Shown in pieces: positions 24,556-26,280 of a DNA stretch of 64,000 nt. Below the pieces are notes generated by a model. The model worked only from the letters and a program-made list of their open reading frames with translations. It did no database searches and was not told where the DNA came from. The DNA comes from Hydrogenophaga sp. Its GTDB lineage: Bacteria; Pseudomonadota; Gammaproteobacteria; Burkholderiales; Burkholderiaceae_C. The stretch is taken from assembly GCA_016741995.1 (NCBI GenBank), contig JACVCO010000009.1, forward strand, positions 1 through 64,000, read 5' to 3'. Positions within the stretch are counted from its first letter, which is position 1. Each line of letters opens with the position of its first letter. Position numbers and translations under genes: made by a program.

Positions 24556-25266
24556 TCAGGCCTTGTCGGCGGCTGCAGCGCGTTGGGCGACGCGGCGGTT
24601 GTGCAGCCAGCCCAGCGCCAGCACCGCGACGATGGTGACGAGCACAAAGCCCCAGTAGGCGGCCACGTGCGAGGGCTCCGGGCCTTTGAACCAGGGCGCC
24701 AGCAGCTTCTCGTTGACCACCATCTTGCCGGCGGTGAACGCCAGCACGCCCGCGCCGATGTACATGATGGACGGGTACTTCTCGACGAGCTTGAGGATCA
24801 GCGTGCTGCCGAAAACCACGATCGGAATGCTAATGAGCAGGCCGATGACCACGAGGTCGAACGAGCCCTGTGCCGCACCAGCGACGCCGAGCACGTTGTC
24901 GATGCCCATCACGGCGTCCGCAATGATGATGGTTTTCATGGCGCCCCAGAACGTGGTGGCACCGCCGCCATGCTCCTCGCCGCCGCCTTCGTCTTCCGCG
25001 ATCAGCTTGTAAGCGATCCACATCAGCGCGATGCCGCCGACGGCCATGAGGCCCGGGATGCGCAGCAGCCACACCACCACCAGCGTCATGGCCGAGCGCA
25101 CGACGATGGCACCGACGGTGCCCCAGACGATCGCCTTCCTCTGGTGCTCCTTCGGCAGGTTGCGGGCGGCCAGCGCGATCACGATCGCGTTGTCGCCGGC
25201 GAGCACGAGGTCGATGAGGATGATGGCCAGCAGGGCAGACCACCAGGCCGCGGACATGAATTCCAT
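24556..25266 (-). CDS. TerC-family integral membrane protein
   Basis: LAIILIDLVLAGDNAIVIALAARNLP, DAVMGIDNVLGVAGAAQGSFDLVVIGLLISIPIVVFGS. Confidence 0.92.
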   Translation of the reverse strand: MEFMSAAWWSALLAIILIDLVLAGDNAIVIALAARNLPKEHQRKAIVWGTVGAIVVRSAMTLVVVWLLRIPGLMAVGGIALMWIAYKLIAEDEGGGEEHGGGATTFWGAMKTIIIADAVMGIDNVLGVAGAAQGSFDLVVIGLLISIPIVVFGSTLILKLVEKYPSIMYIGAGVLAFTAGKMVVNEKLLAPWFKGPEPSHVAAYWGFVLVTIVAVLALGWLHNRRVAQRAAAADKA

Positions 25267-25297
25267 GAAATGGCTCCAAAGAGGGGGAAGAGTTCCG

Positions 25298-25433
25298 AAG
25301 GTCTCGCCCGGCGCCACGTGACCGTGTGCCCAGCGTGCCGGGTGCCGCCGGGCGGCACCGTATTGACGACACGCTGACGGGCACGGCAAGGCACCCGAAG
25401 GAGCCGCCACCGCGCCGGGAGCTACTCCCCTTC
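25298..25433 (-). ncRNA. yybP-ykoY (Mn2+-sensing) riboswitch upstream of terC
   Basis: On minus strand GGAAGGGGAGTAGC ... GTCGTCAATACGGTGCCGCCCGGCGGCACC ... GGGCGAGACCTTCGG, then SD TTTGGAG and ATG of TerC. Confidence 0.85.
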
Positions 25434-25602
25434 CGCGAAAGCCGGCATTGTATTCGGCGGCGTCGGCCGCCCGCCATGCGTGGTTCCCGCAACGGGGCCC
25501 GGGGATACGCACAAGCCCTCACGGCGCGCGGGGAACGCCTGACTAAACTGCCACCAGCCGACCCGCCACGGCGCGGGCCGGCCCAACGCCGAAGGCCGCA
25601 CC

Positions 25603-26280
25603 ATGGAACTGCTCGCGAACCCCCTCTTCTGGCTGGGGCTGGGCCAGATCATCTGGATCAACATCATCCTGTCGGGCGACAACGCGGTGGTGATTGCGCT
25701 GGCCGCCCGCGGGCTCGATCCGCGCCGGCAGAAGCAGGCCATCTTCTGGGGCACGGCGGCGGCCGTGGTGCTGCGCATCGCGCTCACGGTGGTGGCGGTC
25801 AAGCTCATGCAGCTGCCCTGGCTGCAACTGATCGGCGGTTTGCTGCTGCTGTGGATCGGCGTTCAATTGCTCAATGGCGGCGACGACGGCGCGGCGGACA
25901 AAGGCGAGGCCAAGGGTGGCCTGTTCGCGGCCATTCGGACCATCCTGGTGGCCGATCTGGTGATGAGCCTGGACAACGTCATCGGCGTGGCGGCCGCGGC
26001 CAACGGCAACCTCACGTTGCTGGTGATCGGCCTGCTGATCGCGATTCCCATCGTGGTCTTCGGCAGCACGCTCATGATCAAGCTCATGGGCCGCTTCCCG
26101 GCCATCGTCACCCTCGGTGCGGCGCTGATCGGCTGGGTGGGCGCCGAAACCATCGTGTCGGACAAGGTCATCGAGCCCCTGGTGCCGCACCATTCCGTGG
26201 GCTTCTACGCCGCCGCGGCGCTGGGCGCGCTGCTGGTGGTGGCCCTGGGCAAGTTCCTGCAGAACCGCAAGGCGGGCTGA
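25603..26280 (+). CDS. TerC-family integral membrane protein (second paralogue)
   Basis: IIWINIILSGDNAVVIALAARGLDPRRQ, VADLVMSLDNVIGVAAAANGN. Confidence 0.92.
   Translation: MELLANPLFWLGLGQIIWINIILSGDNAVVIALAARGLDPRRQKQAIFWGTAAAVVLRIALTVVAVKLMQLPWLQLIGGLLLLWIGVQLLNGGDDGAADKGEAKGGLFAAIRTILVADLVMSLDNVIGVAAAANGNLTLLVIGLLIAIPIVVFGSTLMIKLMGRFPAIVTLGAALIGWVGAETIVSDKVIEPLVPHHSVGFYAAAALGALLVVALGKFLQNRKAG

Follow-up and report, generated by a model that had tools for sequence, protein, structure and literature searches.

The yybP-ykoY class of riboswitches and its link to terC are already well established. Mn2+ is bound by an invariant adenosine in loop L3 and stabilises helix P1.1 (PMC6754395, PMC9190785), the switch helix whose stabilisation on Mn2+ binding has been described in X. 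oryzae (PMC6754395) and which in L. lactis forms in competition with a terminator (PMC11087558). The L. lactis Mn2+ site comprises L3 residues U39, C40, A41 (N7), U44 and C45 together with a G of L1, and U44 contacts the ion through its phosphate (PMC9190785). Reporters of the E. coli mntP and alx riboswitches are induced by Mn2+ (PMC9603457). Here, we compare these systems with a leader found in a 64,000-nucleotide stretch of Hydrogenophaga sp. DNA, referred to as the window; our literature search found no paper joining riboswitch, Hydrogenophaga and manganese.

Judged by its sequence, the minus-strand leader spanning 25294-25436 (143 nt) is a true yybP-ykoY (Mn2+) aptamer of the E. coli alx/terC subtype. 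We consider it very probable that the whole is a Mn2+ riboswitch of this class and subtype that switches on translation of the downstream terC, with a predicted response to Mn2+. The element is an ordinary member of a well-known class, located where one would expect it, which Rfam 15 RF00080 overlooks. Its class, strand, gene and position are as the original prediction had claimed, with an independent covariance model, R1, tying the window to E. coli alx and mntP. The landmarks named there, AAGGGGAGTAGC (25432-25421), GGGCGAGACCTT (25309-25298), the hairpin GGTGCCG-CCCGG-CGGCACC (25359-25341), a C-rich stretch and the hexamer TACAAT, all lie on the minus strand at the places given, and 30 nt separate the last P1 base of the aptamer (25297) from the terC ATG at 25266. 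The covariance model sets the aptamer edges (25436-25294) slightly outside those first proposed, and the claim that no open reading frame captures the element does not hold, as a mechanical frame (24556-25512) that opens at a GTG farther upstream runs across the leader in the terC frame.

R1 was built from 31 terC leaders of other genera and contains no leader of the window's genus. It scores the window at 68.4 bits (E = 2.9 × 10−17), the sole match across the 3.57 Mb genome, and the same model finds members of the class that are experimentally established, namely E. coli alx (40.1 bits, E = 2.8 × 10−9) and E. coli mntP (28.7 bits, E = 3.9 × 10−6). Helices P1.1, P1.2, P2, P3 and P4 were assigned on the 31-leader alignment before pairs were counted; 89.8% of cells are paired, and double-sided changes occur in 23 of 36 pairs (134 cells). 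No shuffle out of 500 reached the observed value on any covariation measure, and slid versions of the structure were only 28-44% paired. Amongst 80 orthologous terC loci, 75 carry a full-length aptamer; of the other five, three are without it, one is cut by a contig end and one offers too short an upstream region.

A search with RF00080 had been proposed as the test by which the original prediction could be refuted. Run with cmscan, RF00080 matched nothing in the window at its 45-bit gathering cut-off and nothing over the leader at E ≤ 10, which places the leader below a threshold of the database, not a biological one. This negative is uninformative for the window because the same model also returns no match at E ≤ 1 for the leader of E. 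coli alx (L112), an experimentally established riboswitch, and scores E. coli mntP (L113) at 41.6 bits, under its own cut-off. RF00080 matched none of 20 related terC leaders, and it missed 53 of the 56 R1 sites in 121 genomes of the family, the three that overlap its matches by coordinates being in G157, G148 contig 3 and G113 contig 42; it recovers an mntP/GDT1-type copy elsewhere in the window's own genome (L001) at 109 bits. RF00080 is blind to the alx/terC subtype of this textbook riboswitch, so a negative cmsearch must not count as absence, and annotations built on this model would miss many Burkholderiales Mn2+ riboswitches. That a GC-rich leader merely resembles a riboswitch by chance, as the missing RF00080 match at E ≤ 10 might suggest, is extremely unlikely given the R1 E value and its sole match in the genome, the covariation among relatives and the failure of RF00080 on validated alx; the covariation and the R1 matches to the window, alx and mntP already refute it. 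Rfam matches to toga_FSE, MIR2907 and ALIL at the locus score far under their cut-offs and are due to chance.

The R1 alignment places the parts of the aptamer on the minus strand as follows. The switch helix P1.1 joins GAAGG (25429-25433) to CCUUC (25297-25301), and the L1 box GGGGAGUAGC (25421-25430), whose columns are invariant in the 31-sequence alignment, forms the 5′ side of the L1 internal loop opposite GAGACC (25305-25300); both this partner and the GGGGAGUA characteristic of the class (25430-25423) are present and are invariant, or nearly so, in relatives. P1.2 pairs GCUC (25419-25422) with GGGC (25306-25309), 98.4% of its helix cells being paired in relatives, and all eight P1.1/P1.2 pairs tested can form in the window. 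The P2 arm (approximately 25379-25417, from folding and covarying helix 3) is variable and is missing from some relatives. The P3 arm (25331-25376), placed by alignment and covariation, consists of P3.1 (25376-25368 with 25339-25331), the L3 loop GUCAAUAC (25367-25360) and the P3 hairpin GGUGCCG/CGGCACC (25359-25341), and the P4 arm spans 25310-25330. The four-way junction of P1.1/P1.2, P2, P3 and P4 that marks the class is present, with covariation behind it; the aptamers of known structure, from L. lactis and X. oryzae, share this junction, the docked L1 and L3 and the P1.1 switch helix (PMC9190785, PMC6754395), which for the window are predicted from sequence.

The L3 loop carries the invariant Mn2+-binding adenosine within CGUCAAUACG (25368-25359), the same motif as CGUCAUUACG of alx, with the equivalent of A41 at 25364. 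Mapped by motif, L. lactis U39, C40, A41 and C45 would fall on 25366, 25365, 25364 and 25360, where U, C, A and C are kept; L3 UCA and C45 are common to L. lactis, X. oryzae and the window (PMC9190785, PMC6754395). The position equivalent to U44 is an A in the window, as it is in E. coli alx, and on this mapping the Mn2+-site bases match those of alx. The alx leader (the PRE element) further shares with the window the L1 GGGGAGUA, an L3 CGUCANUACG followed by CCGG and GGGCA, the P1.1-closing GAGACCUU and a TerC-family gene downstream. An element that has decayed or been retuned, keeping its fold while losing its switching or sensing another divalent ion, could account for an R1 score of 68 bits where many relatives reach about 90-124 bits, and the sensor seems to have been wholly lost in a sister clade described below. 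We nonetheless regard this as improbable, since both boxes (L1 and L3) are intact, as are the bases of the Mn2+ site and every P1.1/P1.2 pair, and the lower score would stem largely from GC-rich composition and the variable P2 and P4 arms.

The downstream gene (24556-25266, minus strand) encodes a 236-aa YjbE-type TerC membrane protein (PF03741, E = 3 × 10−48; TIGR03717 R_switched_YjbE, 227 bits against a cut-off of 134.8), in line with the manganese-homeostasis-type genes (TerC, MntP, GDT1 and others) that follow leaders of this class. Its conserved start is the ATG at 25266, and its relatives are up to 95% identical; its substrate specificity is inferred from homologues. A second terC paralogue (25603-26280, plus strand; PF03741) diverges from the same intergenic region, and R1 has no match on the plus strand of the window that would provide it with a riboswitch. 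At another locus (L082), the gene in the divergent position is a terC of Alx type that, unlike this paralogue, has an aptamer of its own.

The -10-like TACAAT just upstream of the aptamer (25447-25452, minus strand) is conserved at a like distance in related leaders, which supports its original assignment: a TATAAT-like hexamer (at least five of six positions) lies just 5′ of the aptamer in 69 of 83 related leaders, compared to 2 of 80 in a control interval farther upstream, and TACAAT itself is present in all six leaders of the compact clade discussed below. We found no −35 match upstream of the aptamer. Because the hexamer is kept at the same interval in relatives, transcription probably starts at the aptamer's 5′ edge, at about 25440.

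Between the aptamer and the start codon lie the Shine-Dalgarno GGAG (25274-25277) and the C-rich stretch CTTCCCCCTC / CUUCCCCCUC (25281-25290), the predicted partner of the L1 G run in RNA whose aptamer is not folded. The alx leader differs here in being longer, its ATG lying about 80 nt beyond GAGACCUU, and in having an alternative hairpin GACCUUGCC/GGCGAGGUC, where the window has 30 nt after P1. Translation control is favoured over termination because no intrinsic terminator separates the aptamer from terC, unlike in L. lactis, which uses antitermination; the most likely mode, as far as folding models can indicate, would be an ON switch in which Mn2+ stabilises P1.1 and so opens the ribosome site. 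The sequence supports a transcription start just 5′ of the aptamer and an RNA able to fold into P1.1-L1-P1.2, P2, P3-L3 and P4, with the Mn2+-site bases retained. At low Mn2+, P1.1 would remain unformed and the Shine-Dalgarno region would be locked in alternative pairings, in which either the C-rich stretch binds the L1 G run or the Shine-Dalgarno itself is taken up by the P1.1 3′ strand. As Mn2+ rises, L1 docked on L3 would stabilise P1.1 and disrupt these pairings, and the freed Shine-Dalgarno would allow more TerC to be made and excess manganese to be handled.

In window transcripts ending 6-15 nt into terC, folding pairs the L1 G run with the C-rich stretch at a probability of 0.87-0.98. 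The pairing between the C-rich stretch and the G-rich 5′ box that had been suggested is hence predicted for this leader, but it is only partly common to relatives: it appears in short transcripts of the window, L004 and L032 (0.87-1.0), while in L003, and in longer transcripts of L034 and L004, the Shine-Dalgarno is predicted to pair with the P1.1 3′ strand. In ligand-free folding of six Hydrogenophaga leaders, all related in sequence, P1.1 has a predicted probability close to zero and most of the Shine-Dalgarno is tied up in pairs (mean unpaired 0.19-0.33). The predicted alternatives vary among relatives and with transcript length, such that single-sequence folding leaves the OFF state unsettled, and forcing P1 in the window leader opens the Shine-Dalgarno only modestly. 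We also considered GCUCC of P1.2 as a conserved anti-Shine-Dalgarno for GGAGC and rejected it, since both sequences are conserved for other reasons and folding does not favour the pairing.

The same aptamer might instead act on transcription elongation, through Rho or a pause, or on mRNA stability. Other members do use terminators, as in L. lactis (PMC11087558), in the genome's second copy (L001) the aptamer is followed by a hairpin and a U-rich tail, and Vibrio RNA-seq left the mode unsettled (PMC13274385). Against this, no intrinsic-terminator-like site is found in 25250-25610 and the aptamer-to-start-codon gap is only 30 nt, the Shine-Dalgarno included, and we judge such a mode unlikely, at perhaps a minor share of the probability, relative to control of ribosome access.

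Comamonadaceae terC leaders (Ramlibacter, Variovorax, Xylophilus and others) have the orthologous terC and the aptamer in common with the window but differ in their platforms. P1 and the start codon stand 27-32 nt apart in the window's clade and 38-195 nt (median 116) apart in leaders outside it. A UCGAA strand able to pair with the P1 3′ strand is present in 44 of 51 leaders examined outside the clade and in none within it, whereas a helix between the P1.1 strand and the Shine-Dalgarno can be extended by at least three pairs in all seven leaders of the window's clade (two of them identical) and in only 4 of the 51 others. In the terC gene tree, six compact leaders and six aptamer-less leaders form sister clades (support 99/97 and 100/98) nested in aptamer-bearing relatives.

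The aptamer-less leaders, all from sister Hydrogenophaga (L005, L006, L007, L035, L036 and L039, at about 70 nt upstream of terC), represent three distinct sequences in which both ends of the aptamer are kept. They retain GAGGGAGGGGGAG...GGGCAGRACCTTCGG immediately 5′ of the Shine-Dalgarno. When their 3′ part was compared to riboswitch leaders, 0-2 of 500 dinucleotide shuffles scored as high in 10 of 12 comparisons (5/500 and 11/500 in the other two); the 5′ part stood clearly above dinucleotide shuffles against L032 only. The simplest reading seems to be that the sister clade deleted the sensor core and left its two ends. More tentatively, and with slightly less than even confidence, we propose that an ancestral long platform with an anti-P1 strand gave way to a compact element acting on the Shine-Dalgarno in the window's clade, while the sister clade lost the core and presumably expresses terC without manganese control. 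Between them, the compact leaders and the apparently deleted ones of sister Hydrogenophaga species allow a natural comparison for the change of output and the loss of a riboswitch. Of 67 genomes of the genus searched for an exact match to the aptamer-less leader pattern, three carried it. The 5′ segment of these leaders (GGRCUUU...GGGGAGYYC) can also make a small hairpin, the pairs of which vary across the three distinct sequences.

Elsewhere in the window's genome, a second yybP-ykoY riboswitch (L001:1501-1679(+), corresponding to G000 contig 15, 24701-24879) lies before a GDT1 (UPF0016/MneA-type) exporter gene, and R1 also picks up this element. This RF00080-matched copy shares with the window the L1 box, the GCAAGACC end and a Mn2+-exporter-type gene downstream; it differs in its mntP/GDT1 subtype, its L3 GUCAACANAC and its hairpin with a U-rich tail. 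In several further Burkholderiales families, a yybP-ykoY aptamer stands before a LysR-type regulator (L011:1029-1124(-), L012:1092-1198(-), L009:1223-1330(-), L146, L132 and L139), and those of L009, L011 and L012 are divergent from a neighbouring terC. A LysR regulator under Mn2+ control would, if true, be atypical among the targets of this class; a literature search on the combination returned reviews and unrelated work only. At L009:1501-2769(+), the TerC frame runs on into a C-terminal region resembling a universal-stress-protein domain, an apparent fusion.
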